Below are positions 8,150 to 32,953 of a DNA stretch of 34,718 nt, piece by piece; within the stretch, counting starts at the first letter, position 1; each line of letters begins with the position of its first letter. The stretch is from the NCBI GenBank assembly GCA_903878475.1, contig CAIRHQ010000181.1, positions 1 through 34,718 of the forward strand. The letters run 5' to 3'. Source of the stretch: an uncultured Bacteroidota bacterium (GTDB taxonomy: Bacteria; Bacteroidota; Bacteroidia; Chitinophagales; Chitinophagaceae). The position numbers were made by a program, and so were the translations under genes. The notes under the pieces are model-generated. The model saw only the letters and a list, made by a program, of their open reading frames with translations, made no database searches and was not told the origin of the DNA.

Positions 8150-8950
8150 CTATTTAGCTAACGGCTGATTGTAAAGCACCAAGGGTTTACCGGTTACCGG
8201 ATTGCTCATGATGCTGGTAGATACATCAAATACTTTGCTGATCAGATCCTCATTGATCAATGTTTCAGAAGAGCCCTGCGCAATCAGTTCACCTGCTTTC
8301 ATGAAAAATAATTGATCGGCATATTGAATGGCCAAGTTGATATCATGCATCACTGCAATGATCACAGTATTGGCATCACAGAAAGAACTGGCTATTTGTA
8401 AAAACTCTTGTTGGTAATTGATGTCTAAACTTGTCAAAGGCTCATCCAGAAAAAGATAACGGAATCCATCAGCAGGCTTTTCCCATATTTGAGCCAATAC
8501 CCTTGCAAACTGCACCCGCTGCTTCTCTCCCCCACTCAAGGTCAAATAATTTCTGTTGCGAAAATCGAGCAGGTGCATTCGCTCCATCACTGCATGGCAT
8601 ATCTCGTGATCTTTTTTATTGGGTTGAAAATGGAAATGCGGATAACGCCCCATCATCACCACTTCTTCTACCAGCAGTGGAAAACTTAATTCTGGTTGCT
8701 GACTCATTACGGCGCGATAACAGGCCAGCGTTTCTTTGCTGATCTGTTCAAGTGGAGTGCCTGCATAACTAATATTACCATCATATCGATTCAACTCACC
8801 ACTAAATATTTTCAAAAAACTGGATTTGCCCGAGCCATTGGGCCCCAGGATCATATTGAATTTGCCGGGAAGAAAATCTGCATTGATCCCATCCAGGATC
8901 AGTTTTTTTCCAATGCGATAATAGATATTACGGGTGCTAAGCATGCTCAC
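8150..8950 (-). CDS. hmuV: Heme ABC transporter ATP-binding protein
   Basis: A 266-residue ATPase of the FecE/BtuD/HmuV class. Walker A GPNGSGKS at 36-43, signature LSGGEKQ at 138-144, Walker B LFLDE at 166-170 and switch H202 are intact. It drives inward transport of heme through the HmuU permease. The first codons overlap the end of hmuU by 14 bases, so hmuT-hmuU-hmuV are translationally coupled. The alternative start M3 would shorten the overlap to eight bases. It converges with the Mo oxidoreductase gene with only 15 bases between them. Confidence 0.92.
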   Translation of the reverse strand: MSMLSTRNIYYRIGKKLILDGINADFLPGKFNMILGPNGSGKSSFLKIFSGELNRYDGNISYAGTPLEQISKETLACYRAVMSQQPELSFPLLVEEVVMMGRYPHFHFQPNKKDHEICHAVMERMHLLDFRNRNYLTLSGGEKQRVQFARVLAQIWEKPADGFRYLFLDEPLTSLDINYQQEFLQIASSFCDANTVIIAVMHDINLAIQYADQLFFMKAGELIAQGSSETLINEDLISKVFDVSTSIMSNPVTGKPLVLYNQPLAK

Positions 8951-9989
8951 CTCCTTTGTTTTGCATCAGGTCGAACCGCTTCAGCAGGATGATAAAGACA
9001 GGAGCCCCCACAATTGAAGTAATGATCCCAATCGGCAATTCAGCCGGCGCCAGCAATAATCTTGCGCACATATCTGCCAGCGTGAGTAAGGCTGCACCCA
9101 ATAAGATGGCAGCAGGTAACAAACGTTTATTATCACTACCGATCAATAACCTCAATACATGCGGCACGATCAATCCCATGAAAGCGATCACACCCACAAA
9201 TGCCGTAGCCACCGCTACCATGGCCGTATTCAACAACATGATCCTTTTCTTCAATCGGTCTGGATCCACACCCAAGTATAAAGCCTCTTCTTCACCGAGT
9301 AACAAGGCATTCAATTGTTTTGAATAGCGGAATGAAATGATAAACCCGATCACTGCGATGGACCCCACAATAAAAACCTGTTGCCAGGAGGCCCCGGAAA
9401 AAGTTCCGAGGTTCCAGAACGTGATACTTCTTGCCTGTGGGTCACGGGCTATATAACTCATGAAACCGGTGCCGCTTAAACAAACGGCATTGATGGCAAT
9501 ACCGATCAGCAATAATGACAGCACGGATACACGCCGAGCATTCTTTGCTAACGAATACACGATAAAACTGGCCAGTAAAGCACCGCAAAATGCGGCAAGG
9601 GGAAGCAACCAGGGTCCGGTAAAACTTTTCATGGCAGGACTAAAAGCTGGTGCCAGTACAAAAACGATTGAAGCCCCCAATGCAGCACCGGAACTGGTAC
9701 CTACCAGCCCGGGTTCAACAATAGGATTGCGAAACAACCCTTGCATCAATACGCCGCTTACGGCCAGAATAGAACCTGTGATGGCACATAATAATACACG
9801 AGGTAAGCGCAACTGAATAAAAACACCTTCATAAATATTGCCTGCCGGCTTGCCCTGAAATAAATGCAACAAGGCATTGTACATATCAGCAACACTGATG
9901 GGCACTGCCCCAAAAGCAATGCCGGCAGTGAGTACAGCTATAAGCAGTACAAACAATGCAGGAAAAAAATATTTATTTTGTCGGAGCAA
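8937..9989 (-). CDS. hmuU: Heme ABC transporter permease (FecCD family)
   Basis: A 350-residue permease with about ten hydrophobic helices. The FecCD signature is clear: RLPRVLLCAITGSILAVSG, then MQGLFRNPIVEPGLVGTS, and later GLIVPHVLRLLIG, the coupling segment that meets the ATPase. It forms the inner-membrane channel of the hmu importer. It overlaps hmuT upstream by 17 bases and hmuV downstream by 14. Family members also carry vitamin B12 or siderophores; the heme assignment rests on the HmuT partner. Confidence 0.92.
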   Translation of the reverse strand: MLRQNKYFFPALFVLLIAVLTAGIAFGAVPISVADMYNALLHLFQGKPAGNIYEGVFIQLRLPRVLLCAITGSILAVSGVLMQGLFRNPIVEPGLVGTSSGAALGASIVFVLAPAFSPAMKSFTGPWLLPLAAFCGALLASFIVYSLAKNARRVSVLSLLLIGIAINAVCLSGTGFMSYIARDPQARSITFWNLGTFSGASWQQVFIVGSIAVIGFIISFRYSKQLNALLLGEEEALYLGVDPDRLKKRIMLLNTAMVAVATAFVGVIAFMGLIVPHVLRLLIGSDNKRLLPAAILLGAALLTLADMCARLLLAPAELPIGIITSIVGAPVFIILLKRFDLMQNKGGEHA

Positions 9990-10866
9990 TGGTTGGTGTA
10001 TGTAAAAGGTTGATCAATTTAATGATATTAGCTCCCGAACGCGGGCCAAAATAAACGATATCATGTTCTTCAAATCGTACAATGCGTTTATTCTTTCCGG
10101 CGTTGGTAAGGGCCACTCCGGGAACACTGCTGATGAATTTATCCATGGTACCCATGCGATCAAATCCAAAATCGGTAGCAATGATGATATCCGGGTTGGC
10201 TAATGCCACTGCTTCGGCACTCATTTCCCGGGCACCTTTTCCATCATAGCTCGCAGGAGTACAACCAGCCAATCTTATCATTTTATCTCCCACCCCATTT
10301 CTTCCGCTCATCACAAAATAGTTATTGTTGCGTAATCCAAAATGAATGATCATCACTTTCAATGAATCTTTCAGTTGTAGGGATTTCAATGTATCGGCTG
10401 CACGGGCTAAGCCTGCTTCCATATCCGAAATGACCGAATCAGCTTTTTTACTTACACCAAAGAACTGTCCTAATTCTTTCAGCAATAATTTAGCACTATC
10501 GATGGTATTGGCACCGCCGAATGCTTTTATATTCAATCCGGCTTTTGTGATCTGGGGCAATACTGTTTCCGGACCAATATCGTTGCTGTGGATCACCAGG
10601 TCGGGATTCATAGCAATAATGCCTTCTGGATTCAATGCGCGGTGGTACCCCACTGTTTTCAATAGTTTGGCACTATCGGGATAAGTACTGCTGAGGTCAA
10701 CGGCCACCAGGTCATGGCCCTTACCCAGGGCAAAAACCATTTCGGTAAGTTGCTTCGACAAACACACAATGCGCATGTCCTTTGTACCATCAATTTCTTT
10801 ATTGCCAAAACGACCACAAGAAAATAAGCTGGCAGCAAGTATCAGAAAAGGGATTATTTTTTTCAT
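9973..10866 (-). CDS. hmuT: Heme-binding lipoprotein of the ABC importer
   Basis: A 297-residue class III substrate-binding protein. The N-terminus is a lipoprotein signal (MKKIIPFLILAASLFSC, cysteine at 17). The mature part begins MRIVCLSKQLTEMVFALG and carries the HmuT-like stretch VDLSSTYPDSAKLLKTVGYH followed by LNPEGIIAMNPDLVI. The tyrosine in VGYH aligns, from memory of Yersinia HmuT, with a heme-ligating tyrosine. It should sit in the periplasm attached to the inner membrane and deliver heme to HmuUV. A strong hairpin terminator separates it from the receptor gene upstream. A B12 or siderophore substrate is less likely. Confidence 0.86.
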   Translation of the reverse strand: MKKIIPFLILAASLFSCGRFGNKEIDGTKDMRIVCLSKQLTEMVFALGKGHDLVAVDLSSTYPDSAKLLKTVGYHRALNPEGIIAMNPDLVIHSNDIGPETVLPQITKAGLNIKAFGGANTIDSAKLLLKELGQFFGVSKKADSVISDMEAGLARAADTLKSLQLKDSLKVMIIHFGLRNNNYFVMSGRNGVGDKMIRLAGCTPASYDGKGAREMSAEAVALANPDIIIATDFGFDRMGTMDKFISSVPGVALTNAGKNKRIVRFEEHDIVYFGPRSGANIIKLINLLHTPTIAPTK

Positions 10867-10882
10867 ATTTCAATTTTAAATA

Positions 10883-10913
10883 AAAAGGGCAGTTATCAAT
10901 CAACTGCCCTTTT
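10883..10913 (-). terminator. Strong hairpin between TonB receptor and hmuT
   Basis: AAAAGGGCAGTT-ATCAATC-AACTGCCCTTTT is a perfect 12-bp stem with a 7-base loop. On the minus strand it is followed by a T-rich run (TTTTTATTT). It lies seven bases beyond the receptor stop and 17 bases before the hmuT start, so it either ends the receptor transcript or attenuates hmuTUV expression. The A/T ends also make it work in the other direction. Confidence 0.85.
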
Positions 10914-10919
10914 ATGATG

Positions 10920-13370
10920 TTAAAAATTATACTTCACATTCACGCCGCCATAAGCATTTGCTTTAAGCGGGGCAGGCAAATAAGCATCGGGCAATTGGTT
11001 GGCAAATACCATATATGGATACTGAGTTTTGGTGATATTGTCTACCCCAAAAAATGCATCCAGATCAATATGATTATTCAGTGATTTCCTGAAACCGATC
11101 TTTCCGTTCACCAGATTATAACTGGCTGCTTTACGTAAGATATTCACATTGCTGATGTTTTCAAAACCAATATTTACGCCATCCTTGTACAGGTGATATA
11201 CATTCAGATACAAACCATTGTTGAGGCCTACATCAACACCCCAGGTATTGGCGATCTTAGGAACACCAAACACATTCAAGCCACTATAATCCGTGGTTAT
11301 GATATTAGAAGTGGTGGAACCTGATTTATAAATAAAATTCTTGTATTTAAAATCGCTGTAAGCAAAATTGAGGAAGGGGGTAATATTTGCGATCAATCCT
11401 TTTCCGTCTTTCACCACTGCATATTTCAGCAAGGCTTCAATACCATTATGATCCTGTTCGCCACCATTTACTACATAACTATATGCAGTAGTGGTGTTGT
11501 TCAGCTGCACAGATACATTGGTCATTTTATTGGAGAAAACAGCATGGAAATAAGCCAACTGATAATTCAACTTACTGTTAAGCAAAGAGCCCTTGGTTCC
11601 TAATTCAAACTGACTGCCTCTTTCTGGCTTCAATGCCGAATTGAGTCTGGCTGTTGCCGCTGTTGCCGGTGAAGCAACCACCGGAGTTACAATATAGAAA
11701 TAGGCACTAATGGGTGCTTTATAACCGGTGCTATAAGAAGCATACACAGAGAAATTCTTATTGAATACTTTATTCACTGCGAAATGTGGCGACACCATAT
11801 TCTTGTAGCTAGTATCAAATTCAGAAGGCTTGGTTGCTGTTGCCGGATTCAATCGATCCTGCAGGTAGATCTTCATATTGCTGAATCCGAGTCCTGCTGT
11901 AAATGACAGATCATTTGGCAGTCCTAATGTCCATTCAGTAAATTCAGAAGTGGTATTGGTAATGGTGAATACATTCGAAGTAGTGGCATTGATCACCCAA
12001 TAAGGTTTTCCGATGGCCCATCCATTGGTTGTGGTATCCAACGGATTTTGTTTCATATTGTATCCGATCGTGTTGGCATGCTGGTGTTGTGTTTCAATTC
12101 CGGTGATACCACTGAGTGAAATTTTAGGGCTCAGGTTGAACTTGGTATTGAATGTAGAACGAAGTCCGATATTGATAGGCGCTTTATCGGTCCAACCAGC
12201 TGCCGAACTCACGTTCTGGTTTTGGCCTGTACCAAAAACAGTGGTAGAGTTAGAAAAATTATTGTTGAAAGAATAATTATGACTAATCCCTGCACGGTAG
12301 CTGATCACATTGCTATGTCCGTTCCTTTTAATGTAATCAACATTCCCTACACTGTAATCCTTGCTCTCGTATTGCGTGGTGGTGAGTTCGCCTCCGCGTT
12401 GATCGTAGCTGTTGGTATAGCCAAAATAAGTACTGATATTCTGTTTGGCATTGGGTTGAAATTCGCCCACAAAATTTACAAATTGTTTATCGGAACGGGT
12501 ATGCACCATATAACCATCTACGTGCTGGTTGCCATAGTTCAGCAGTATGGAAGACTTCTCAGTACCCATAGAAAAATGTGTGGTAAAACGACGCAAGCCA
12601 TAGCTGCCCAGTAAGATATCCTGTCCAAGGGTCGTTTGCCCCTTAACCGCTTTTACTGTTTTAAGGTTCACGGCACCCGCAATAGCCAGTCCGTATAAAG
12701 TACCCGCTGGCCCCTTGGTGACTTCCACATTGGCTACCGAACCAAAGTCGATATCATCCATCAGGGTAATGCCTTCTGCATCAGTAACCGGAATGCCATT
12801 GAGGTAAACTTTATATCCTTGTCCGTCGAAATTGCTGCTTACGCCCCTGGTTCCACGAGTACCATTGCCGTATCCGCGTAAATTAAATTGTTGCCCTGCA
12901 GCCACAGATCTTCTTTGCATACTCACACCGGGAATATTAGCATTAATGGCATCATCCAGGAATAAGCCCACACCCCTTTTTAATTCTACGGGAGTTAGTT
13001 TACTGATGGAGGCAGGCTGATACAGCAATGATTTATTGCTATTAGACGTAGCCGTTACTTCCACTTCTCCCAGGGTACCGGCAGTAGGGCTAAGGCGAAT
13101 ATTCAGTACCTCATCACAATTTTTAATGGTGAGTTTTCTCAATTCATATCCCACATGAGTGATTGTGATCGAAGTAGCTTTGCTGCAGTCGAATGAAAAA
13201 TTCCCTTCATTGTCACTGGTTGTACCAGTAGCCCCTGTACCGGTGATGGTGGCACCTGCCAAGGGATTATTATTTTCGGCATCCACGATTTTCCCTTTCA
13301 GTTTTGTTTGGGCAATGGAGGCCAGGGTGATGAAATTCAAAATCAGTATGGTAATAATTCTGCGTGTCAT
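10920..13370 (-). CDS. TonB-dependent outer-membrane receptor, probably for heme or iron chelates
   Basis: An 816-residue receptor when started at the ATG at 13370. The track start at 13436 adds 22 residues before an obvious signal peptide (MTRRIITILILNFITLASIAQ), so 13370 is preferred. A carboxypeptidase-regulatory-like domain comes first (KLKGKIVDAENNNPLAGATI), then a TonB-box-like segment (GEVEVTATSN), the plug (YGLAIAGAVNLKTV) and a long beta barrel ending in phenylalanine (GGVNVKYNF), the sorting signal for outer-membrane barrels. The SusD partner is missing, so this is a plain importer and not a Sus-type glycan system. The neighbouring hmuTUV genes suggest heme or an iron chelate as cargo. 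An inverted repeat lies upstream. Confidence 0.92.
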   Translation of the reverse strand: MTRRIITILILNFITLASIAQTKLKGKIVDAENNNPLAGATITGTGATGTTSDNEGNFSFDCSKATSITITHVGYELRKLTIKNCDEVLNIRLSPTAGTLGEVEVTATSNSNKSLLYQPASISKLTPVELKRGVGLFLDDAINANIPGVSMQRRSVAAGQQFNLRGYGNGTRGTRGVSSNFDGQGYKVYLNGIPVTDAEGITLMDDIDFGSVANVEVTKGPAGTLYGLAIAGAVNLKTVKAVKGQTTLGQDILLGSYGLRRFTTHFSMGTEKSSILLNYGNQHVDGYMVHTRSDKQFVNFVGEFQPNAKQNISTYFGYTNSYDQRGGELTTTQYESKDYSVGNVDYIKRNGHSNVISYRAGISHNYSFNNNFSNSTTVFGTGQNQNVSSAAGWTDKAPINIGLRSTFNTKFNLSPKISLSGITGIETQHQHANTIGYNMKQNPLDTTTNGWAIGKPYWVINATTSNVFTITNTTSEFTEWTLGLPNDLSFTAGLGFSNMKIYLQDRLNPATATKPSEFDTSYKNMVSPHFAVNKVFNKNFSVYASYSTGYKAPISAYFYIVTPVVASPATAATARLNSALKPERGSQFELGTKGSLLNSKLNYQLAYFHAVFSNKMTNVSVQLNNTTTAYSYVVNGGEQDHNGIEALLKYAVVKDGKGLIANITPFLNFAYSDFKYKNFIYKSGSTTSNIITTDYSGLNVFGVPKIANTWGVDVGLNNGLYLNVYHLYKDGVNIGFENISNVNILRKAASYNLVNGKIGFRKSLNNHIDLDAFFGVDNITKTQYPYMVFANQLPDAYLPAPLKANAYGGVNVKYNF

Positions 13371-13419
13371 AATTATAAAATGTAAATGGTGAAACAAATA
13401 GATATCATCACAAATCAGA

Positions 13420-13439
13420 TGTATGTTATTAAACATACA
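13420..13439. promoter_or_regulatory. 20-bp inverted repeat upstream of the TonB receptor
   Basis: TGTATGTT-ATTA-AACATACA has perfect 8-bp arms and a 4-base centre. It lies 50 bases before the receptor ATG, in the gap after the unknown anchored protein gene. It has no T-tract, so an operator is more likely than a terminator. It does not resemble the enterobacterial Fur box. Confidence 0.5.
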
Positions 13440-18056: not shown

Positions 18057-19322
18057 ATGCCATCAGGTTCGGTATTTACACCACAGTATAACAAAATAGA
18101 AAATGAACGTTTTGAAGCATTGTTTCAATTCGCTTCCATGGGTATATTGGTAGCCAACAGCGGTGGCGAAATTGTGTTGGCCAATGATTTCCTGATAACC
18201 TTATTCGGATACGATAATGCGGATGAACTGGTTGGGAATAAGATAGAAAAACTGATCCCCCAACGCTACCATTCAGGCCATGTACATCAACGCGATCATT
18301 ACATGCAGGAACCCAAGCGCAGGCCAATGGGGCGCGGCATTGACCTTTTTGCCAGCCGGAAAGATGGTTCTGAATTCCCGGTAGAGATCAGCCTGAGCAA
18401 TTATTCAACCGACGAGGGTAATTATGCCATTGCCTTTATCACTGATATCTCCAAAAGAAAGGAGATTGAAAATGCCGTGATGGAACAAAAAGAAGAACTG
18501 GCATCCATTAACCTGAAAATTGAGGAACTGAACAATGACCTGGAGAAAAAAGTAGAATTGCGAACCAAGCAATTAAGGGATACCATGAAACAACTGGAAA
18601 CTTCCAGGGATGAGATCACCAAGGCGCTCAGCAAGGAAAAAGAGCTCAGCGACCTGAAAAGTCGGTTTGTATCCATGGCTTCTCATGAATTCAGGACCCC
18701 ACTCAGCACCATCCTGTCTTCGGCCTCACTGGTAGCAAAATATACGGAAAGTGAGGAGCAGGATAAAAGAGACAGGCATATACAGCGTATTAAATCATCT
18801 GTAAACAACCTTACTGATATCCTGAATGAGTTTTTATCGCTGGGCAAAATCGAGGATGGAAAGATCGTTTCCCATTATGCAGATTTCAGCATCAAGGAAA
18901 TGGGAACAGCCATTTGTAATGAGCTTACAGGTATTGCCCGGCCAGGTCAACAATTGATATATACCCATCAGGGGAATGAAATTGTACACCTCGACCCTAC
19001 ACTATTTAGGAATGTGATCATCAATTTATTATCCAATGCCATTAAGTTCACCCCCGAAAATGGTACCATCACCATAACCAGTAAAGTAACTCCAAAAAAA
19101 ATCAGCCTTCGCATAAAAGACAATGGGTTAGGAATTTCGCCCGAAGATCAGAGCCATTTATTTGAACGATTCTTTAGAGGGGCAAATGTGATCAATATTC
19201 AGGGAACCGGATTAGGCCTGCATATTGTTGGAAAATATATAGAACTCATGAATGGCCAGATCGAATTTAATAGCGTGTTGGAAAAAGGTACAGAATTTAT
19301 CATTACTTTTAATACAGAATAA
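18057..19322 (+). CDS. Soluble PAS sensor histidine kinase (FixL-like layout)
   Basis: A 421-residue kinase without membrane helices, so it senses an internal signal. A PAS domain (about 17-135) ends in RKDGSEFPVEISLS and a PAC-like AIAFITDISKRK. A coiled coil (134-200) leads to the dimerisation domain with phospho-acceptor H210 (MASHEFRTP). The ATPase domain has N327 (LLSNAIKF), DNGLGI at 355-360 and GTGLGL at 383-388. The PAS F-helix region contains H75 in YHSGHVHQ, which lines up without gaps with the heme histidine of Bradyrhizobium FixL, but the FixL heme-pocket arginine is not kept and this PAS type is also common without heme. The receiver-CRP regulator follows 20 bases later. Confidence 0.9.
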   Translation: MPSGSVFTPQYNKIENERFEALFQFASMGILVANSGGEIVLANDFLITLFGYDNADELVGNKIEKLIPQRYHSGHVHQRDHYMQEPKRRPMGRGIDLFASRKDGSEFPVEISLSNYSTDEGNYAIAFITDISKRKEIENAVMEQKEELASINLKIEELNNDLEKKVELRTKQLRDTMKQLETSRDEITKALSKEKELSDLKSRFVSMASHEFRTPLSTILSSASLVAKYTESEEQDKRDRHIQRIKSSVNNLTDILNEFLSLGKIEDGKIVSHYADFSIKEMGTAICNELTGIARPGQQLIYTHQGNEIVHLDPTLFRNVIINLLSNAIKFTPENGTITITSKVTPKKISLRIKDNGLGISPEDQSHLFERFFRGANVINIQGTGLGLHIVGKYIELMNGQIEFNSVLEKGTEFIITFNTE

Positions 19323-19342
19323 CCGAATCCAAATAAAACGAT

Positions 19343-20401
19343 ATGAAGCATTTATTGCTAATTGAAGACAATAACGAGATCAGAGAAAATACCGTAGAAA
19401 TTCTGGAACTCGCAGGCTATAAAGTACATTCTGCTGAAAATGGGAAAATTGGAGTTGAAACCGCTTTGCGGGAAAAGCCAGATCTGATCATTTGTGATAT
19501 CATGATGCCGGTACTGGATGGATATGGGGTTTTACATTTACTGAATATGAATCCCGAGATCAAAGGAACTCCCTTTATATTTCTGACAGCTAAGTCAGAA
19601 CGCAGTGATCTAAGAAAAGGAATGGAAATGGGAGCCGATGACTATATCACCAAACCTTTTAATGATATAGAACTGTTGAATGCCATTGAAAGCCGGCTGA
19701 AAAAAGTGGAACTCATGAAAAAGAATTATGAGTCCAGCGCAGACGGCATGCGGCAGATGCTCAGTGAATTCAACGGAAAAAATATATTGGAAGACATCAC
19801 CAAAGACAGAAATACCAATTATTACAAGAAGAAGCAGATCATCTATACAGAAAGCAATCACCCCTCTCGTCTATTTTATATCATCAAGGGTAAGGTAAAG
19901 ACCTACAAAACGAATAATGAAGGGAAGGAACTGACGGTGGGTCTTTTTAATGAGGGCGATTTTTTAGGATATACGGCGTTGCTGGAAGGTACCATTTATA
20001 AAGAAACAGCTGAAGCCATCGATGAAACGGAAACTGCCATCATTCCCAAAGAAGAATTTGAAGCGCTGATCAACAACAACAAGGAATTGACGCATAAGTT
20101 CATCCAATTGCTGGCCAAAAACATCAGTGAAAAAGAGGAACAATTACTCGGACTGGCATACAATTCATTAAGGAAACGAGTAGCCGATGCGTTGGTGACC
20201 CTGCAGAATAAATACAAAAAATCGGGACAGCAACCATTCTCCATTCATATTTCAAGAGAAGATCTGGCCAATATTGCAGGCACAGCCACTGAATCACTGA
20301 TCCGCACCCTAAGTGATTTTAAAAGCGAAAAATTGATCGAGATCAAGGAAGGAAATATCATCATCCTGAACGAGAAGAAATTGGCAGACATGCTCAATTG
20401 A
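19343..20401 (+). CDS. Response regulator fused to a CRP/FNR-type DNA-binding protein
   Basis: A 352-residue fusion. The receiver domain (1-120) has E8/D9, phospho-acceptor D52 (IICDIMMP), T82 and K104. A helical linker leads to a cyclic-nucleotide-binding-like beta roll (about 148-255: FYIIKGKVKTYK, GLFNEGDFLGYTALLEG), then a CRP-type winged helix (about 273-345: ISREDLANIAGTATESLIRTL). There is no FNR iron-sulfur cysteine cluster (one cysteine only), and the cAMP-binding arginine/serine pair is not evident, so phosphorylation is the likely switch. It follows the PAS kinase by 20 bases as a cognate pair. It converges with 20413-20802 and faces the cbb3 oxidase cluster, suggesting it controls those genes. 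Confidence 0.92.
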   Translation: MKHLLLIEDNNEIRENTVEILELAGYKVHSAENGKIGVETALREKPDLIICDIMMPVLDGYGVLHLLNMNPEIKGTPFIFLTAKSERSDLRKGMEMGADDYITKPFNDIELLNAIESRLKKVELMKKNYESSADGMRQMLSEFNGKNILEDITKDRNTNYYKKKQIIYTESNHPSRLFYIIKGKVKTYKTNNEGKELTVGLFNEGDFLGYTALLEGTIYKETAEAIDETETAIIPKEEFEALINNNKELTHKFIQLLAKNISEKEEQLLGLAYNSLRKRVADALVTLQNKYKKSGQQPFSIHISREDLANIAGTATESLIRTLSDFKSEKLIEIKEGNIIILNEKKLADMLN

Positions 20402-20412
20402 TGCATGCTGGC

Positions 20413-20802
20413 TTATAATTCAGTTGCCAGATATTTATTGAATTCATTTTTCAATTTGGTGAAATCCCGCTCCAGATATTCCATTTCATTGCGCAGCTTA
20501 TCCTGACGTTTCATATTCTTATCGCTCACCACATAAATGGAATTGCTGATATCATCTTTCAGCATCCTGGCCTGTGCATTGATATCATGTTTCAATTCAT
20601 CCATGAATTCATCTTTCAAAATAAACCGGTTTTGAAACTGTTCGGCCAATGCGAGAAATTCTTTGCTGCTTTCCTGGTCAACTACTTCAGATAACCGATT
20701 TTTCAGAAAACTATTTTCCTGCTTAAAAAAATCAATAGAGCGGCCCCATGTAAGATTTTCGTGGAGAAATTGTTGGTGTTTAGATAGTTTAGTAGTTGAC
20801 AT
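20413..20802 (-). CDS. Coiled-coil cytosolic protein, function unknown
   Basis: A 129-residue hydrophilic protein with no signal or membrane helix. It is almost entirely helical: heptad-like patterns run through residues 25-60 and 85-125 (LRNEMEYLERDFTKLKNEF). It starts MSTTKLSKHQQFLHENLTWGR. No domain was recognised. It converges with the receiver-CRP gene, separated by only 11 bases, and lies downstream of the cbb3 cluster on the same strand with a 105-base gap, so it probably has its own promoter. A partner role in the stress or oxygen response is only a guess. Confidence 0.72.
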   Translation of the reverse strand: MSTTKLSKHQQFLHENLTWGRSIDFFKQENSFLKNRLSEVVDQESSKEFLALAEQFQNRFILKDEFMDELKHDINAQARMLKDDISNSIYVVSDKNMKRQDKLRNEMEYLERDFTKLKNEFNKYLATEL

Positions 20803-20849: not shown

Positions 20850-20893
20850 GATAATTTTAGTGTTAGTATAATTGAACGATAAAAATCATATAT

Positions 20894-20908
20894 ACGAATG
20901 AGATTCGT
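20894..20908 (-). terminator. Weak hairpin at the end of the cbb3 cluster
   Basis: ACGAAT-GAG-ATTCGT gives a 6-bp stem that touches the stop codon of the TauE-like gene. On the minus strand a T-rich stretch (ATGATTTTTATC) follows some bases later. It is weaker than the ssb and receptor terminators. Confidence 0.3.
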
Positions 20909-21609
20909 CAGGGTTTATAGCATTCTTGCATGGTCATTTTATTGGAAACAATATCAGGACTAACATACGGTATCCCCAATCCCATGCCGCGAAGGATCAG
21001 CAGACAGGCTATACAGACCATCAGGTATGGATAAACCTTGCGTATCTTCATCCTCACTCCCGCGCCAATATGATTCGCGAAGAAAATGATTGTCCACATA
21101 ACAGGCAATGTACCCACCCCAAAAGCTGCCATAAAAATCACACTGTCCAATATAGAACCGGATGATAGTCCTGCCGCCATCGCCATATACACCATACCAC
21201 AGGGCAATAAACCATTCAGCATACCGATCATTAGTAATGAACGGTAATTATTCTTTGTATATAGTTTTCCCATCAACTGGCGAACTATCTTGAAAAAATT
21301 TGCCACTGGTGGAAGATGATCAAAACTATACCTCATCAACAGGAAAAACAATATCAAGGTTCCTAATATGATGGACAACCACTGTTGGAACCCGAATAGA
21401 CTGGCCGATCTTCCTATCCAGCCCACCAACAACCCGAGCAAAGAATAGGTGATTATCCTTCCTGCATTATATAAGAATGAACCCATGAATTTGCGAAAAC
21501 TATTTTCACTTTGTATCGGCAAGGAAAGCGCCAATGGCCCGCACATTCCCACACAGTGGAAACTTCCGAGTAAGCCCAATGCTATACCTGCTGATAATAA
21601 TGCGATCAT
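20908..21609 (-). CDS. TauE/SafE-like (DsbD_2) membrane protein, cbb3 oxidase maturation
   Basis: A 233-residue membrane protein with about six helices. It begins LLGSFHCVGMCGPLALSLP: a His-Cys-x3-Cys segment in the first helix typical of the DsbD_2/urease-accessory-H-like subfamily, thought to handle copper or other metals rather than sulfite. A second hallmark, GLLPCGMVYMA, lies near 134-144. In many Bacteroidota and Proteobacteria this gene ends the cco cluster. Here it follows fixH by 27 bases. A role in copper delivery to the CuB site of the oxidase is likely but inferred. The sulfite-exporter name should not be taken literally. Confidence 0.85.
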   Translation of the reverse strand: MIALLSAGIALGLLGSFHCVGMCGPLALSLPIQSENSFRKFMGSFLYNAGRIITYSLLGLLVGWIGRSASLFGFQQWLSIILGTLILFFLLMRYSFDHLPPVANFFKIVRQLMGKLYTKNNYRSLLMIGMLNGLLPCGMVYMAMAAGLSSGSILDSVIFMAAFGVGTLPVMWTIIFFANHIGAGVRMKIRKVYPYLMVCIACLLILRGMGLGIPYVSPDIVSNKMTMQECYKP

Positions 21610-21636: not shown

Positions 21637-22068
21637 TTAGAAAACTATTTTTTTCTCCGAATAATAATCAAGTCCATCTACCTGCCAATTGACATGTAAC
21701 TCATAAGCCCCCTTGTAGCCCGGAGGAATGGAAAGTGTATAACTGGTATCGGTTACTGAAAAATCTTTCCGGATATCCCTATTTTCATCTGATGGGCAAT
21801 ACAACAACACATTTCCTTTGATGAGTTTTCCGGCAAAATCCTTTGGAAAACTGATCTGCAACTGATTTTCTTTTAATGCGAATTGCAGCTCCGCCGACAA
21901 TGCATCGGCCCGTTTTGTTTGATCGATCCGCTGCTGGTATTTTAACTCCTGGGCATAATAATCAGGCGTTACCAGATCGTCCTTCTCGCCCGACACTTTG
22001 AATACCATGAATAATATTCCGGCAACAAATGCGAGATAAACAAAAAGTATTTTATGTCCCCAGTTCAT
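21637..22068 (-). CDS. fixH: FixH-family cbb3 oxidase assembly protein
   Basis: A 143-residue protein with one N-terminal membrane helix (about 5-25) and an extracytoplasmic beta domain, matching FixH/CcoH in length. The characteristic start of the soluble part, LVTPDYYAQELKYQQRID, is present. CcoH-type proteins bind the cbb3 complex during assembly and may stabilise it. It lies between ccoG (25 bases upstream) and the TauE-like gene (27 bases downstream), as expected for an operon. Confidence 0.9.
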   Translation of the reverse strand: MNWGHKILFVYLAFVAGILFMVFKVSGEKDDLVTPDYYAQELKYQQRIDQTKRADALSAELQFALKENQLQISFPKDFAGKLIKGNVLLYCPSDENRDIRKDFSVTDTSYTLSIPPGYKGAYELHVNWQVDGLDYYSEKKIVF

Positions 22069-22093: not shown

Positions 22094-23512
22094 TCAATGA
22101 TACACTTCCGGTCCGATAAATTTGGCAGTAATGGTTTTCAATTTTTTTTCATTTTCATATAACCCAATGACCAATGCCGTTTTCCATCCATTCAATTGTT
22201 CTGGTTTTAGATTCACAAAGAATTGCAGGTTGGTATAATCCTCTTTTTTAACCACCAAGCTACTGCTTCCTACAAATGTGATCTCCCCCGCCATATTTTC
22301 AAGCTTCAACGTGAACGGAATATCTTCGTGTGTTTTGTTGGCCAGTTTAAGGCTATACAAGTTGGCAATTCGACCATCCGGCAATGTACTGTACGTCATA
22401 CCGGCTGTACGCATCAATCGGGCATCAAGGTTGGTACGACTTACCAACAGGAATACCAATAAGCTCAGGAGTATGGTCAGTACTACGGTGTAGGCTTTGA
22501 TACGAGCGGTGAATTTCAACTGCACTCCACTGGCAATACTATTTTCAGAAGCATACCGGATCAGACCCTTTGGTTTTTGAATACCTTCCATGATGGAATC
22601 GCAGGCATCAATACAGGCGGTACAATTCACGCATTCCAACTGGGTTCCATTGCGAATATCGATAGCCGTTGGACAAACCCTTACACAGGCAAAACAATCG
22701 ATACAATCACCTGATTCAGCAGGTTGATTGAGATCGTCTTTTCTGAATTTTCCCCTGGGCTCTCCACGCTTATTGTCGTAAGCTACCATGATGGAATTCT
22801 TATCAAGCAATACACCCTGTAATCTTCCATAGGGACATACCACGATACAAACCTGTTCCCTGAACCACCAGTACACAAAAAAGAATACAGAAGTAAACAC
22901 GATAAGGGAAACCAAGGTGCCTGTATTGGCACCCGGATTTTCCATATAGCCAATCAGTTTGTCCATACCGATCAGGTAGGCCAGAAAAAAATTTGCAATG
23001 ATGAATGAGATAGAAAAAAAGGTAATGAACTTGAATGTCCTTTTCATTAATTTTTCAGCATTCCAGGGCATTTCCCTGAGTTGCTTTTGCCTGCCGGCAT
23101 CGCCATCTATCCAATATTCAATTTTACGAAAGACCATTTCCATGAAAATGGTTTGGGGACAAGCCCATCCGCAAAATAATCTTCCAAAGATCACTGTGAA
23201 CACGATCACAAATACAATGAACGTCAGCATTGCGATCCCGAAGATGAAGAAATCCTGGGGCCAGAACACCATTCCAAAGATGATGAACTTGCGCTCCAGT
23301 ACATTCAGCATGAAGAGCGGCTCACCATGCAGCTTAATAAAAGGAAGTGTAAAAAATACTGCTAGGTAAAAAATACTGAACCAGGTGCGCAGGTTATATA
23401 ACCTGCCCTTGGGTTTTCGTGGATTTATGAAATTGCGTTTACCCTCACTGTTGATGGTCGCCACAGAATCCCTGAAAGACCCCTCTTCATCCAGTTCAAT
23501 AGTCTTTTTCAT
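22094..23512 (-). CDS. ccoG: Cytochrome c oxidase accessory protein CcoG (FixG)
   Basis: A 472-residue membrane ferredoxin-type protein. It has an N-terminal helix region, the CGWACPQTIFMEMVFRK motif, a later REQVCIVVCPYGR motif, and two [4Fe-4S] clusters in CIDCFACVRVCP and CVNCTACIDACD. The C-terminal 120 residues form the immunoglobulin-like FixG domain. CcoG reduces Cu(II) to Cu(I) for insertion into the cbb3 oxidase. Length is normal and all cluster cysteines are present. It follows ccoP by 52 bases. Confidence 0.95.
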   Translation of the reverse strand: MKKTIELDEEGSFRDSVATINSEGKRNFINPRKPKGRLYNLRTWFSIFYLAVFFTLPFIKLHGEPLFMLNVLERKFIIFGMVFWPQDFFIFGIAMLTFIVFVIVFTVIFGRLFCGWACPQTIFMEMVFRKIEYWIDGDAGRQKQLREMPWNAEKLMKRTFKFITFFSISFIIANFFLAYLIGMDKLIGYMENPGANTGTLVSLIVFTSVFFFVYWWFREQVCIVVCPYGRLQGVLLDKNSIMVAYDNKRGEPRGKFRKDDLNQPAESGDCIDCFACVRVCPTAIDIRNGTQLECVNCTACIDACDSIMEGIQKPKGLIRYASENSIASGVQLKFTARIKAYTVVLTILLSLLVFLLVSRTNLDARLMRTAGMTYSTLPDGRIANLYSLKLANKTHEDIPFTLKLENMAGEITFVGSSSLVVKKEDYTNLQFFVNLKPEQLNGWKTALVIGLYENEKKLKTITAKFIGPEVYH

Positions 23513-23564: not shown

Positions 23565-24761
23565 TTATGGCTTCTTCACTGTCACAGAATCCAGCTTCAC
23601 TACTTTAACAGTATCTTTTTTCACCCCGGCAGAATCTGCTTTAGGTGTAGTTGCCACATCCACATACATATCGCCCTGTGGCGCTTTGGCATTTGGCGGA
23701 TTGGTACCACGCAATGATTTTACATAACTCGCCAGCAAACTGATCTCCTTAGGATTGAATTTGGTGCTCCAGGATTGCATGCCCTTGTCGGGATAACCAA
23801 TCTTAATGCTCTTAAAAATATCATTCAATGATCCCTTGTGGATCCAGTAATCATCTGTTAAGTTCGGACCTACATTACCGGCACCACCCTTTAAATGGCA
23901 GGCCACACAATTAGCCTCAAACATTTGTTGAGCAGTGGCGAGGCCAGCTGCATCAGCCATGGGCACATTGTTCTCATCGATCTTATCCTTATTCTGTGCA
24001 TCATAGATATCCTTTTCCACCTTAGCTTTTTCCATTTCAGCTACATATTCCTGATCAGGATTTTTTCCGATCCCCAACACATGAAAATTAAGCAGGTATA
24101 CCAAGGCAATACCAATGGTGATATAGAATCCGTATTTCCACCAGGGTGGCAGGGCATTGTCAAGTTCATGGATGCCATCATAATCATGATCGAGCATCAC
24201 ATCTGCTTCCTTCTCTACGGGGATGGCCTTGGTAAATAATTTAGAATCCATTCTTGCCCACCAGCTACCGAGTGCCGATTTCTGACCAGCAACAACTTTT
24301 CTTTCGGGCATTAATTCATAATAAATCCTGCGGATAGAAAATGCCATGAACAAGATCACCAACACTTCGATGGCGATCACTGTTACAAAGAAGTAGAAGG
24401 TAGTTTCAGATAGTCCACCATAATTTGGCACTACTTTAACCGCTGCCGCAGCATCCTGAGCAAAGCTCTGCTGGGCCAATAAACTTCCTGCTATCAGCAA
24501 TAGCAAGCCCAATGCTTTAGGTGTATTCCTGCTTTTTTCCATTACCTGACGGCTGAGTTCTACTAATATCCTACCCATCCCCCAGATAACAAAAGATAGC
24601 ACAACGGTCATGATTACCAGTAAAACAGCCAATTGGTTGTTCCCGGAGGCTACCGTTTTTTCTGCAGTTGTTGCAGCATTCTGCGCCAGTATCACCTGTG
24701 CCATTGGAAGGCTGATTGCGGCAAGAAATATTTTCTTTTTTATAGATGAAATGAATTGCAT
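23565..24761 (-). CDS. ccoP: cbb3 oxidase subunit CcoP with a single heme c
   Basis: A 398-residue subunit when started at the ATG at 24761; the track start adds 22 residues that overlap ccoQ and precede an evident leader (MQFISSIKKKIFLAA). It has helices near 44-62, 84-100, 122-142 and 211-229. The cbb3 N-terminal motif LDHDYDGIHELDNALPPWW is at 190-208. There is one cytochrome c motif, CVACH, at 285-289, with M328 as a probable axial ligand. Proteobacterial CcoP carries two heme c groups; here only one is visible. The N-terminal extension has two signal-like stretches each ending in alanine-glutamine. It accepts electrons from cytochrome c and feeds CcoO/CcoN. Confidence 0.92.
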   Translation of the reverse strand: MQFISSIKKKIFLAAISLPMAQVILAQNAATTAEKTVASGNNQLAVLLVIMTVVLSFVIWGMGRILVELSRQVMEKSRNTPKALGLLLLIAGSLLAQQSFAQDAAAAVKVVPNYGGLSETTFYFFVTVIAIEVLVILFMAFSIRRIYYELMPERKVVAGQKSALGSWWARMDSKLFTKAIPVEKEADVMLDHDYDGIHELDNALPPWWKYGFYITIGIALVYLLNFHVLGIGKNPDQEYVAEMEKAKVEKDIYDAQNKDKIDENNVPMADAAGLATAQQMFEANCVACHLKGGAGNVGPNLTDDYWIHKGSLNDIFKSIKIGYPDKGMQSWSTKFNPKEISLLASYVKSLRGTNPPNAKAPQGDMYVDVATTPKADSAGVKKDTVKVVKLDSVTVKKP

Positions 24762-24771
24762 GTCTTTCAAT

Positions 24772-24963
24772 TTATAATGTTGAGTTAGATAATTCCTCTT
24801 TGTCAAAAGGGATATTCGATAATTCATCCAGTTTCGATTTTCTCATTCTTTTTACCAATACCAGTAAGATGACAAAGAAGAGAAAAAAGATCAGCAATGA
24901 GATCATCGGATAGATCTGCACATTGCTTATTGATTCAGCATATTGCTTAATGAATTTGAACAT
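24772..24963 (-). CDS. ccoQ: Small cbb3 oxidase subunit, CcoQ-like
   Basis: A 63-residue protein with one membrane helix (about 18-40, IYPMISLLIFFLFFVILLVLV) followed by a basic stretch and an acidic tail. It lies between ccoNO and ccoP with gaps of seven and ten bases, the usual place of CcoQ, which stabilises the complex. The sequence itself is poorly conserved, so the call rests mainly on size, topology and position. Confidence 0.82.
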   Translation of the reverse strand: MFKFIKQYAESISNVQIYPMISLLIFFLFFVILLVLVKRMRKSKLDELSNIPFDKEELSNSTL

Positions 24964-24970
24964 GTGTTAT

Positions 24971-27103
24971 TTATTTTTGACTGTTAGTGTTTGATTTCCC
25001 AATATCGGTACCCAGCCTTTGTAAATAAGCAATCACGGCGATGACCTCCTTCGTAGCAGGAACATCAATACCTTCTATTTTCAGGTTGATCCTGATTCCG
25101 TTTGCCTGCGCAGTCAGGTCGGCATTGGCCTGTGTATCATATCCCTTAGGATAAGGTACACCCAGCGTTTGCATGGCCCTTATTTTAGCAGGTGTTGTAC
25201 TGATATCAAGGTCTTGCTCGATCATAAATGCATAAGGAGGCATGATCGAACCTTCGCTCATGGAAGATGGTTCACGCAAGTGGCGGAAATGCCATCCATC
25301 CGATTTTTTCAGGTTACCTGAACCCTCTCTTCCCAGATCAGGACCGGTACGTTTACTTCCCCACTGGAATGGATGATCATACACAAATTCTCCTGCTTTT
25401 GAGTATTCTCCATATCGCTCTGTTTCGCTTCGGAAAGGACGGATCATCTGAGAGTGGCATACATAACAACCCTCTCTAACATAAATATCTCTTCCCTGTA
25501 ATTCAAGTGGAGTATATGGTTTAACGCTGGTAATCGTAGGTACATTCGACTTTATCAGGAATGTGGGTACCAACTCAATAAGTCCACCAATCAGGATCAC
25601 CACTAAACTCAGGATCATGAACTGAATAGGACGACGCTCGATCCAGCGATGCCAATGTTCGCCTGCATGTGGGGCCATTGACTTTTCAATAGGAGCCGCT
25701 TCTGCTGCTTCATTAGCCACCAGTGTTCCGGACTTAACTGTTTTATAAATATTGTACACCAATAAAACAGCACCGGTTAGGTATAATACACCACCCAGTG
25801 AACGCATGAAGTAGAAAGGCTTCATATAAGTCACTGTTTCCAGGAAAGTGTATTTCAACTGTCCTGCTTCAGTGAATTGTTTCCACATTAAACTTTGTTG
25901 GATACCGGCCCAATACATAGGAATGGCCCAAAAAAGGATACCCAAAGTAGCCAGCCAGAAATGGCGGTTGGCCATTTTCTTAGAATACAATTCAGTTTTG
26001 AAAATTCTTGGAATCAGCCAGTACAACACACCAAAGGTGAGCATACCGTTCCATCCCAATGCCCCAATATGTACGTGGGCAACTACCCAATCAGTATAGT
26101 GACTTACTGCACTAACACTCTTCAACGAAAGCATAGGACCTTCAAATGTAGCCATACCATATGCGGTTACTGCTACCACCATGAATTTAAGAATTACATC
26201 ATCACGCACCCTGTCCCAGGCACCACGAAGTGTAAGTAATCCATTGATCATACCTCCCCAGCTTGGGAAGATGAGCATCACAGAGAAAACAACACCCAGT
26301 GATTGCGCCCAGTTTGGAAGGGCAGTATATAATAAATGGTGAGGACCTGCCCAGATATATAAAAAGATGAGGGCCCAGAAGTGAATGATCGATAAACGAT
26401 AAGAATACACAGGACGATTGGCTGCCTTTGGCATGAAATAATACATCAAACCAAGGTAGGGCGTGGTGAGGAAGAATGCTACTGCATTATGACCATACCA
26501 CCATTGTACCAATGCATCCTGCACACCAGAATAAAAACTATAACTTTTCAACCAGGTATAAGGCAATTCACCTGAACGAACGAGGTGAAGCACCGCCACG
26601 GTGATGAATGTTGCGATATAGAACCAAATGGCTACATACAAATGTTTTTCCCTTCTTTTAATGATGGTACCAAACATATTCCAACCGAAAATAACCCAGA
26701 TCACGGTGATGGCCAGATCGATCGGCCAGATCAACTCGGCATACTCAGCACCATTGGTTAATCCAAGTGGAAGCGTAATCGCAGCCGATACAATGATCAA
26801 CTGCCAGCCCCAGAAATGGATATTGCTCAGTACATCACTGAACATCCTGGCCTTGCAAAGCCGTTGCAAAGAATAGTAAACTCCCATGAAGAGCCCATTG
26901 CCCACGAAGGCAAAGATCACAGCATTGGTATGCAGAGGCCTTAGCCTGCCGAAAGAACCATACTGCGTGATGTTCAGCTGGGGAAATACCAATTCCAATG
27001 CTACCCAGAGACCGGCCAGCATACCTACAACCCCCCATAGAATGGTGGCGTATGCGAAATTTTTTACAATCCGGTTGTCGTAATAAAATTTTTCTACCTG
27101 CAT
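24971..27103 (-). CDS. ccoNO: Fused cbb3 cytochrome oxidase subunits CcoN-CcoO
   Basis: A 710-residue fusion. Residues 1-470 are the heme-copper subunit CcoN with twelve helices: H58 (RPLHTN) for the low-spin heme, H205 (WWYGHNAVAF) and H255/H256 as copper-B ligands, and H343/H345 (VVAHVHIG) for the hemes. After a short linker, residues 492-710 are CcoO: one anchor helix, then heme c motif CYVCH at 546-550 and QMIRPF. The protein reduces oxygen to water with high affinity and pumps protons. Such fusions are common in Bacteroidota. It follows ccoS by four bases. Confidence 0.96.
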   Translation of the reverse strand: MQVEKFYYDNRIVKNFAYATILWGVVGMLAGLWVALELVFPQLNITQYGSFGRLRPLHTNAVIFAFVGNGLFMGVYYSLQRLCKARMFSDVLSNIHFWGWQLIIVSAAITLPLGLTNGAEYAELIWPIDLAITVIWVIFGWNMFGTIIKRREKHLYVAIWFYIATFITVAVLHLVRSGELPYTWLKSYSFYSGVQDALVQWWYGHNAVAFFLTTPYLGLMYYFMPKAANRPVYSYRLSIIHFWALIFLYIWAGPHHLLYTALPNWAQSLGVVFSVMLIFPSWGGMINGLLTLRGAWDRVRDDVILKFMVVAVTAYGMATFEGPMLSLKSVSAVSHYTDWVVAHVHIGALGWNGMLTFGVLYWLIPRIFKTELYSKKMANRHFWLATLGILFWAIPMYWAGIQQSLMWKQFTEAGQLKYTFLETVTYMKPFYFMRSLGGVLYLTGAVLLVYNIYKTVKSGTLVANEAAEAAPIEKSMAPHAGEHWHRWIERRPIQFMILSLVVILIGGLIELVPTFLIKSNVPTITSVKPYTPLELQGRDIYVREGCYVCHSQMIRPFRSETERYGEYSKAGEFVYDHPFQWGSKRTGPDLGREGSGNLKKSDGWHFRHLREPSSMSEGSIMPPYAFMIEQDLDISTTPAKIRAMQTLGVPYPKGYDTQANADLTAQANGIRINLKIEGIDVPATKEVIAVIAYLQRLGTDIGKSNTNSQK

Positions 27104-27107
27104 GTAA

Positions 27108-27284
27108 CTAGTTTTTGGTTTGTGTTAAATTGGCATCAGCCTTGGGCTCATCGTCAAACAACATCCGTACAGATGGAGTGTAATCGTCGTCGAACTGACC
27201 ATTCTTTACACTCCATAAAAAAGCGGCAAGAAAACTCCCTGCCACCAGTATACTAATACCGATAAGTATGAATAAGACGCTCAA
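27108..27284 (-). CDS. ccoS: cbb3 oxidase assembly protein CcoS
   Basis: A protein of about 58 residues with one helix (SVLFILIGISILVAGSFLAAFLW) and the family motif KNGQFDDDYTPSVRMLFDD. CcoS is needed for heme and copper insertion into the oxidase. No ATG fits. The TTG at 27284 gives the standard MSVLFILIG start and is preferred; the track start, a TTG at 27323, adds 13 residues. A GGAAGG sequence lies 13 bases before the chosen start. It is the first gene of the cluster; the copper ATPase ccoI, which usually precedes ccoS, is absent from the window. Confidence 0.85.
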   Translation of the reverse strand: MSVLFILIGISILVAGSFLAAFLWSVKNGQFDDDYTPSVRMLFDDEPKADANLTQTKN

Positions 27285-27335
27285 TAGTGATGTTTTACCT
27301 TCCAAAAATATAAGAGCTACCAAAAAATCGGAATG

Positions 27336-27350
27336 ACCGTTGTCAAAGGT
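27336..27350. promoter_or_regulatory. 15-bp dyad between ccoS and ytxH
   Basis: ACCGTTGTCAAAGGT pairs at six of seven positions around a central T, with a TTG-N-CAA core like CRP/FNR-family sites. It lies 52 bases upstream of ccoS and 69 bases upstream of the divergent ytxH gene. It is the best candidate target of the receiver-CRP regulator in this window; binding is inferred. Confidence 0.45.
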
Positions 27351-27418
27351 TTAGATGATATAAATCAGTAGCTTTCATTTGGTTTTGGTCTAATTTTATA
27401 TAGACAAACTTATAATAT

Positions 27419-27646
27419 ATGAGTAAATTTTCAAAAATAGGCTTCGTATTTCTTGCTGGTGCTGCAATTGGTGCCATTGCCGGAATTCTGCTTGCCCCGG
27501 ATAAAGGTTCGGAAACCCGTAAAAAGATGGCCGACAAGGCCAAGGACTGGGGAGACGCTGTTAAAGAAAAAGCCCAAAAAGGCTTTGAAGAAGTAAACAA
27601 TATGAAGGAAAATTTTGTAAAAAAGTCGGAAGAAAGGTTTTCCTGA
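27419..27646 (+). CDS. YtxH-domain protein
   Basis: A 75-residue protein with an N-terminal glycine-rich helix (FVFLAGAAIGAIAGILLAPDKG) followed by a charged amphipathic helix, the pattern of the YtxH/gas-vesicle-like general stress family. It is probably anchored in the inner membrane. Function is poorly known; relatives are induced by envelope or osmotic stress. It is divergent from the cbb3 cluster and may share its control region. Another 18-bp dyad (GTCTA-N8-TAGAC, 27388-27405) lies just upstream. Confidence 0.88.
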   Translation: MSKFSKIGFVFLAGAAIGAIAGILLAPDKGSETRKKMADKAKDWGDAVKEKAQKGFEEVNNMKENFVKKSEERFS

Positions 27647-27693
27647 CCCGTTTTTCTCACCAATCGGTCAATATTAATGCTATAAGATTGGTA

Positions 27694-32801: not shown

Positions 32802-32953
32802 TAAATATTAATAATTTCTATAACAAAATTTTAAACATATCCGCAGCCAATCAACAATACCTGCTTGACTGATAATAATTTTATGTTTTCCTAACATTTG
32901 TCACCCGATGATTATGCAATAAGTTGTTACTTTGCCCACCATTAAATAATAAT

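Follow-up and report, generated by a model that had tools for sequence, protein, structure and literature searches.

The window analysed here is a stretch of 34,718 nucleotides from an uncultured Bacteroidota bacterium and forms one of the 245 contigs of a 2.85 Mb genome assembly. The named organisms closest to this genome belong to the Chitinophagaceae. Near its middle, a gene for a soluble sensor kinase is directly followed by a gene for a protein in which a receiver is fused to a CRP-type fold and a winged helix, and the pair faces the genes of a cbb3 oxidase on the opposite strand (Table 1). Both open reading frames proposed in a first-pass annotation of the window are present (18057–19322 and 19343–20401), and the oxidase genes that they were said to face are real, with Pfam or profile matches for ccoN-ccoO, ccoP, CcoG, FixH and DsbD_2. 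The gene ccoI, which is found beside ccoS-ccoNO in many relatives, is located apart from ccoS on contig C80 in this genome. An open reading frame listed at 27343–27663, which overlaps the operator, is most likely spurious. Elsewhere in the window, genes for a TonB receptor, a periplasmic binding protein, a FecCD permease and an ABC ATPase form one cluster (8150–13436), which is an uptake system of the metal-chelate or cobalamin type and unrelated to the kinase-fusion pair.

Table 1. Genes and predicted regulatory sites around the kinase-fusion pair (positions refer to the window).
Feature	Position	Strand	Basis
Soluble FixL-like sensor kinase, PAS - coiled coil - HisKA - HATPase_c, 421 aa	18057..19322	+	Pfam, PDB sequence matches, model
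Fusion protein, receiver (D52) + CRP-type sensor fold + HTH_Crp_2 winged helix, 352 aa	19343..20401	+	Pfam, conservation, tree
Small coiled-coil-like protein, convergent with fusion gene	20413..20802	-	No convincing Pfam match
Degenerate tandem box, 2 mismatches, upstream of small gene 20413-20802	20877..20910	-	Suggestive only
DsbD_2 membrane protein, member of oxidase operon	20908..21609	-	Pfam; kept with operon in 33 loci
ccoH/FixH	21637..22068	-	Pfam
ccoG (TIGR02745), cbb3 assembly ferredoxin	22094..23512	-	Profile match
ccoP, cytochrome c subunit of cbb3 oxidase	23565..24827	-	Pfam
ccoN-ccoO fusion, cbb3 oxidase subunits I/II, predicted target	24971..27103	-	PRK14485, 1250 bits
ccoS, 58 aa, TTG start, first gene of oxidase operon	27108..27284	-	Translation; relatives at same place; name from our own reading of the sequence
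Predicted tandem operator, TGAC-CGTT-GTCA (27334-27345) + TGAT-ATAA-ATCA (27356-27367), 22 bp apart	27334..27367	-	Motif scan

The kinase contains a PAS_9 domain (residues 28–132, E 5e-12), a HisKA domain (201–268) and a HATPase_c domain (313–419), while no membrane or extracellular domain was found by Pfam; the candidate phospho-acceptor is H210 within the SHEFRTP motif of HisKA. All Pfam matches of the kinase and the fusion protein were above the curated cut-offs. The proposal that the sensor is FixL-like gained support from haem-PAS matches, from the conservation of a putative haem ligand and from the kinases of relatives. In phmmer comparisons with PDB sequences, the PAS domain matched the haem PAS domains of DosP (E 1e-9) and FixL (E 5e-8), and H75, aligned with the DosP His by phmmer and with FixL by motif, is a candidate haem ligand. 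It is kept in 47 of the 48 partner kinases spanning that position, and none of the 12 other PAS_9 domains of the window's genome has an equivalent. The distal Arg of FixL (GIGREV/GIDRVV-type motif) is absent from the window's kinase, which has Ile95 there, and for this reason we call it FixL-like rather than FixL. The FixL motif including the distal Arg is present in kinases of cco-linked relatives from another family (L066 and L068–L072), one of which (L070) matches FixL at E 8e-26; to judge by these features, these kinases are plainly FixL-type. Haem and O2 binding are likely in the window's kinase and, in these FixL-type relatives, very likely, and oxygen is the likely signal of the window's pair; not every PAS domain with this His may bind haem.

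The fusion protein comprises Response_reg (residues 5–116, E 3e-27), cNMP_binding (160–246, E 2e-19) and HTH_Crp_2 (278–349, E 2e-16) domains. The predicted union of a D52 receiver with a CRP-type fold and a winged helix was borne out by these matches and by the conservation of the receiver pocket: among 61 relatives, D52 and D9 are found in 60 and K104 in all, and T82 is kept in 54 with Ser in the remainder. The hallmarks of a two-component system are all present, namely the HisKA His, the HATPase, the receiver Asp with its pocket, and neighbouring genes. In the recognition helix, ATESLIR, E317 and R321 are invariant in 61/61 fusions, and their spacing is that of the Glu and Arg contacting the TGA half-sites in CRP and FNR. 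The residues E72 and R82, which contact cAMP in CRP, correspond to Tyr210 and Glu221 of the window's fusion in a hand alignment; across the 61 fusions, the former position is Tyr in 50 and the latter Asp/Glu in 55. There is no cysteine in the CRP part, the sole Cys of the protein being C51 in the receiver, and the FNR-type N-terminal Cys cluster with the further Cys for a [4Fe-4S] cluster is absent from the sequence. Since the CRP part has neither cysteines nor the cAMP-contact residues, the receiver is the evident input. Two structure models reached moderate confidence between domains (pTM 0.42 and 0.44), the fusion being modelled as separate domains in an uncertain arrangement, and fold searches with the models retrieved CRP/FNR proteins and histidine kinases and added little.

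Oxygen control of the cbb3 oxidase in rhizobia runs through the PAS kinase FixL, the receiver regulator FixJ and the CRP-type activator FixK, and the first-pass annotation had seen the last two steps collapsed into one protein. This holds as a description of the wiring, but not as a statement of descent. The receiver scored best against models of OmpR/PhoB-type regulators, with FixJ absent among the matches listed, and according to Pfam the output domain is of the CRP type and not the LuxR/GerE DNA-binding domain of FixJ. The FixK model gave 64 bits against a cut-off of 300, in a match spanning the CRP part only. In a tree, with FixK outside it, the fusions formed one group (99/100) and their CRP part was separate from FNR-type regulators. 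By sequence, the fusion falls outside FixJ, FNR and CRP alike.

The fusion architecture has more than 580 relatives in public genomes, and in most of 80 loci the kinase lies directly before the fusion, its catalytic domain starting approximately 690 bases ahead, so the architecture is not a chance frame. A search of 199 genomes of the order with the fusion protein yielded matches in 175 at E<=1e-20, which among the matches listed were strong and mostly full-length in 123 of these genomes. Among 297 genomes across the phylum, 47 matched the fusion at E<=1e-40, and all but three weak or partial matches were within the class of the window. Named carriers include Chitinophaga, Niastella, Ferruginibacter, Flavihumibacter, Emticicia, Dyadobacter, Spirosoma, Rufibacter, Adhaeribacter and Hymenobacter. 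Fusions of the chitinophagal type were also seen in contigs labelled Azovibrio, Chryseobacterium gleum and Alphaproteobacteria (L178, L182, L234), which are probably misnamed or mixed metagenome bins. In the open literature, subscription journals being outside our scope, we found no description of a receiver-CRP fusion in Bacteroidota; the three domain names occur together in a Dehalobacter genome paper.

The regulatory link to the cbb3 genes, originally inferred from gene position, was supported by linkage, by the operator and by the reciprocal replacement with a cysteine-rich FNR. In the order, the fusion lies less than 25 kb from ccoNO in 47 of the 90 genomes having both, where about 1.3 linked matches are expected; an association with ccoN no stronger than chance, which the first-pass annotation had given as refuting the link, was not observed. 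This proportion is a lower bound because the assemblies are fragmented, and the sampled genomes are related to one another, so that the counts are not independent. The usual distance in linked genomes is 3–10 kb, and outside the order linkage was found in 12/28 by our own count. Many linked loci show the arrangement of the window, with pair and oxidase operon convergent, and in others the kinase and the fusion flank the cco operon on opposite sides (L052, L057, L058, L060, L061, L064). In approximately half of the genomes, the pair is located away from cco, often in several copies, indicating that the pair family is not dedicated to cco. Many genomes contain extra copies of the pair that have universal-stress and other genes as neighbours and the same box as at cco. 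The idea that cco linkage is ancestral, with all deep branches of the tree cco-linked, was dropped because those rows had been picked for being linked. A gene for an acetyl-CoA hydrolase/transferase (32924–34243 in the window) recurs near the pair in L046, L048, L049 and L064. In L038, L039 and L041, genes for proteins of 791 aa and 400–402 aa, which we read as phosphoketolase and acetate kinase, lie between the fusion and cco and suggest a coupling of acetate metabolism to low oxygen.

A palindrome TGAY-N4-RTCA was present in 41/41 linked ccoNO promoters, compared with 1.5 expected from a Markov background, and among the gapped 4-base palindromes tested, TGAT-N4-ATCA was over-represented most strongly. 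The tandem operator of the window precedes the TTG start of ccoS by 50 bp and ccoNO by 231 bp. A perfect tandem box occurs 4 times in the 2.85 Mb of this genome versus 0.02 expected, while the reversed pattern occurs 0 times. Two of these sites are at cco genes, one upstream of the ccoS-ccoNO operon and one approximately 340 bp before the start of ccoI (G000 contig C80, 5981–6611; L276, L288), and a third lies about 100 bp upstream of a metallo-beta-lactamase/rhodanese protein. Another perfect tandem box precedes, by 108 bp, a probable paralogue (L275 1034–1393) of the small protein convergent with the fusion; a family like this protein recurs beside kinase-fusion pairs, with a box upstream in 14 of 23 members. 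Around pairs without nearby cco, 53 of 250 upstream regions contained a box; in random 20-kb regions, mostly taken from the genomes of these pairs, 3 of 210 did (p 3e-12). The rate around these unlinked pairs fell with distance from the fusion. The intergenic background of the loci is itself full of boxes and would have understated the enrichment, and therefore the Markov background and the random regions were used instead. By gene family, a box was found upstream of ccoNO (41/52), ccoI (24/42), the kinase set (51/115), universal stress proteins (23/31, and 11/15 in a second, weakly matching set), a radical-SAM protein reading as HemN (7/9), a ScdA/RIC-type protein (8/8) and Hsp20 (9/19). Small families without a Pfam match also have the box upstream, and in one family of 130–134 aa next to kinase-fusion pairs (L045 5727–6116, L053 10830–11231 and relatives) this applied to 21 of 31 members.

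The box is not unique to the fusion, since 17 of 20 ccoNO promoters have it in genomes where no fusion was detected. The 22-bp tandem spacing also occurs in fusion-less loci and was dropped as a feature specific to fusion-linked ones. Where ccoNO is present but no fusion was detected, the best CRP relative is in most cases a stand-alone protein whose cysteines follow the CxxC...C...C pattern of Fe-S FNR, and a stand-alone cysteine-rich FNR lies 3.3–3.6 kb from ccoNO in 8/20 fusion-less genomes. In G089, G163, G169 and G178, FNR is found at the cco locus although a fusion is present elsewhere in the same genome. The fusion and FNR were both near ccoNO in only 1/122 genomes (Fisher p 0.002, uncorrected for relatedness and with hand-picked FNR-linked genomes), which suggests that either sensor, the fusion relay or FNR, can fill the same post at cco. 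The window's genome encodes four cNMP-fold proteins, the fusion and three others, two of which have an E..R helix; a search for a cysteine-rich FNR in this genome found none and retrieved the fusion only.

We consider it probable that the kinase and the fusion constitute a one-step oxygen/redox relay that turns on microaerobic respiration. At low O2, the kinase, with haem most likely bound to H75 of its PAS domain, would autophosphorylate at H210 and pass the phosphate to D52 of the fusion. The CRP-type part of the phosphorylated protein would then bind TGAY-N4-RTCA palindromes via E317 and R321, with the CRP fold presumably serving as dimerisation and DNA-binding output that requires neither cAMP nor an Fe-S cluster and with the receiver as only evident input. 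The box pair at 27334–27367 is predicted to activate, rather than repress, the ccoS-ccoNO-P-G-H operon, and the same tandem box is found upstream of ccoI on the other contig.

The relay and the box might function as described while the PAS domain senses something other than O2 via haem, such as redox state, NO, a flavin or a metabolite, with cco as one of several stress or respiratory targets. The lack of the FixL distal Arg in the window's PAS domain, the copies of the pair next to genes for universal stress, Hsp20 and RIC/ScdA-type proteins, where the same box recurs, and fusions in genomes without detected ccoNO (e.g. G160 and G166) point in this direction. However, partner kinases keep H75 almost without exception while none of the other PAS_9 domains of the genome has it, the cco-linked relatives from another family are clearly of the FixL type, and in other genomes the same place is occupied by the cysteine-rich FNR, a predicted direct O2 sensor, so that we regard a signal other than oxygen as unlikely, though worth keeping in mind. 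Rather less probable is that another member of the CRP/FNR family, either the C81 or the C69 regulator, is the main reader of the ccoNO boxes here and that the fusion serves other promoters. Both regulators have E..R recognition helices (VETVIR and REVISR), and the retention of the box in fusion-less genomes implies that other proteins can read it, but the box clusters around kinase-fusion pairs even far from cco. The C81 protein was set aside as a general reader of the box because it has orthologues in only 26 of the 199 genomes, whereas the box is found in all linked promoters. We see a similarly slim chance that the fusion has kept, in its CRP-like fold, the ability to bind a small ligand and is a two-input regulator combining phosphorylation with a second messenger: its cNMP_binding fold is intact according to Pfam and the pocket-region positions G209, Y219 and A223 are among those conserved in the family, but where CRP contacts cAMP the family mostly has Tyr and Asp/Glu. 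A coincidental neighbourhood, with the pair unconnected to the oxidase, is in keeping with the separation of pair and ccoNO in about half of the genomes having both and with the many other neighbourhoods of the pair, but the linkage, seen in several families and also outside the order, and the operator results already make it very improbable.

The oxygen relay proposed above provides a concrete candidate system of sensor, activator and operator for microaerobic respiration in this branch of Bacteroidota, and its tandem box allows targets to be predicted across the genome. How oxygen controls the high-affinity oxidase has been described well for Proteobacteria; for this Bacteroidota branch, we found no paper on it in the open literature. 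A direct Fe-S oxygen sensor and a phosphorelay appear to have been exchanged in evolution while the operator was kept. More tentatively, and with slightly more doubt than confidence, we propose that one-step relays from haem-PAS kinase to receiver-CRP protein across Chitinophagales and related Bacteroidota orders share or took over the Fe-S FNR operator at the cbb3 locus, and that duplicated relays with this operator control low-oxygen or stress islands of their own.

The architecture is widespread and linked to cbb3, and in its predicted wiring it works like FixL-FixJ-FixK shortened by one step. With the FixL-FixJ-FixK systems of rhizobia and Caulobacter it has in common a PAS kinase with the haem-ligand His position, a putative phosphorelay to a CRP-type regulator and a CRP/FNR-type palindrome upstream of the cbb3 operon and its assembly genes. 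In contrast to these systems, one protein would cover the work of FixJ and FixK without a separate fixK step, the receiver is OmpR/PhoB-like instead of FixJ-like, and the window's kinase is devoid of the FixL distal Arg. Of the features of FixK, the CRP/FNR fold without Fe-S cysteines, the E..R helix and the box at the cbb3 promoter are seen for the fusion, but FixK has no receiver, and its model fits only the CRP part and scores far below the cut-off. The haem PAS of E. coli DosP matches the kinase in sequence with its His ligand aligned, whereas DosP has another output and its distal Met position is Arg93 in the window's kinase. The stand-alone cysteine-rich FNR of related Bacteroidota shares the ccoNO promoter box, a homologous CRP fold, the E..R helix and the place near ccoI-ccoNO, but is predicted to sense directly through an Fe-S cluster (CxxC-x8-C ... 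C112) and has neither receiver nor kinase. In Rhizobium leguminosarum, a FixL-type relay (hFixL-FxkR-FixK) and FnrN likewise converge on one operator, the anaerobox shared by FixK and FnrN upstream of cbb3 genes (PMC7888657). There both act in sequence in one cell, whereas across the genomes compared here the fusion and the cysteine-rich FNR tend to be mutually exclusive at the cco locus.
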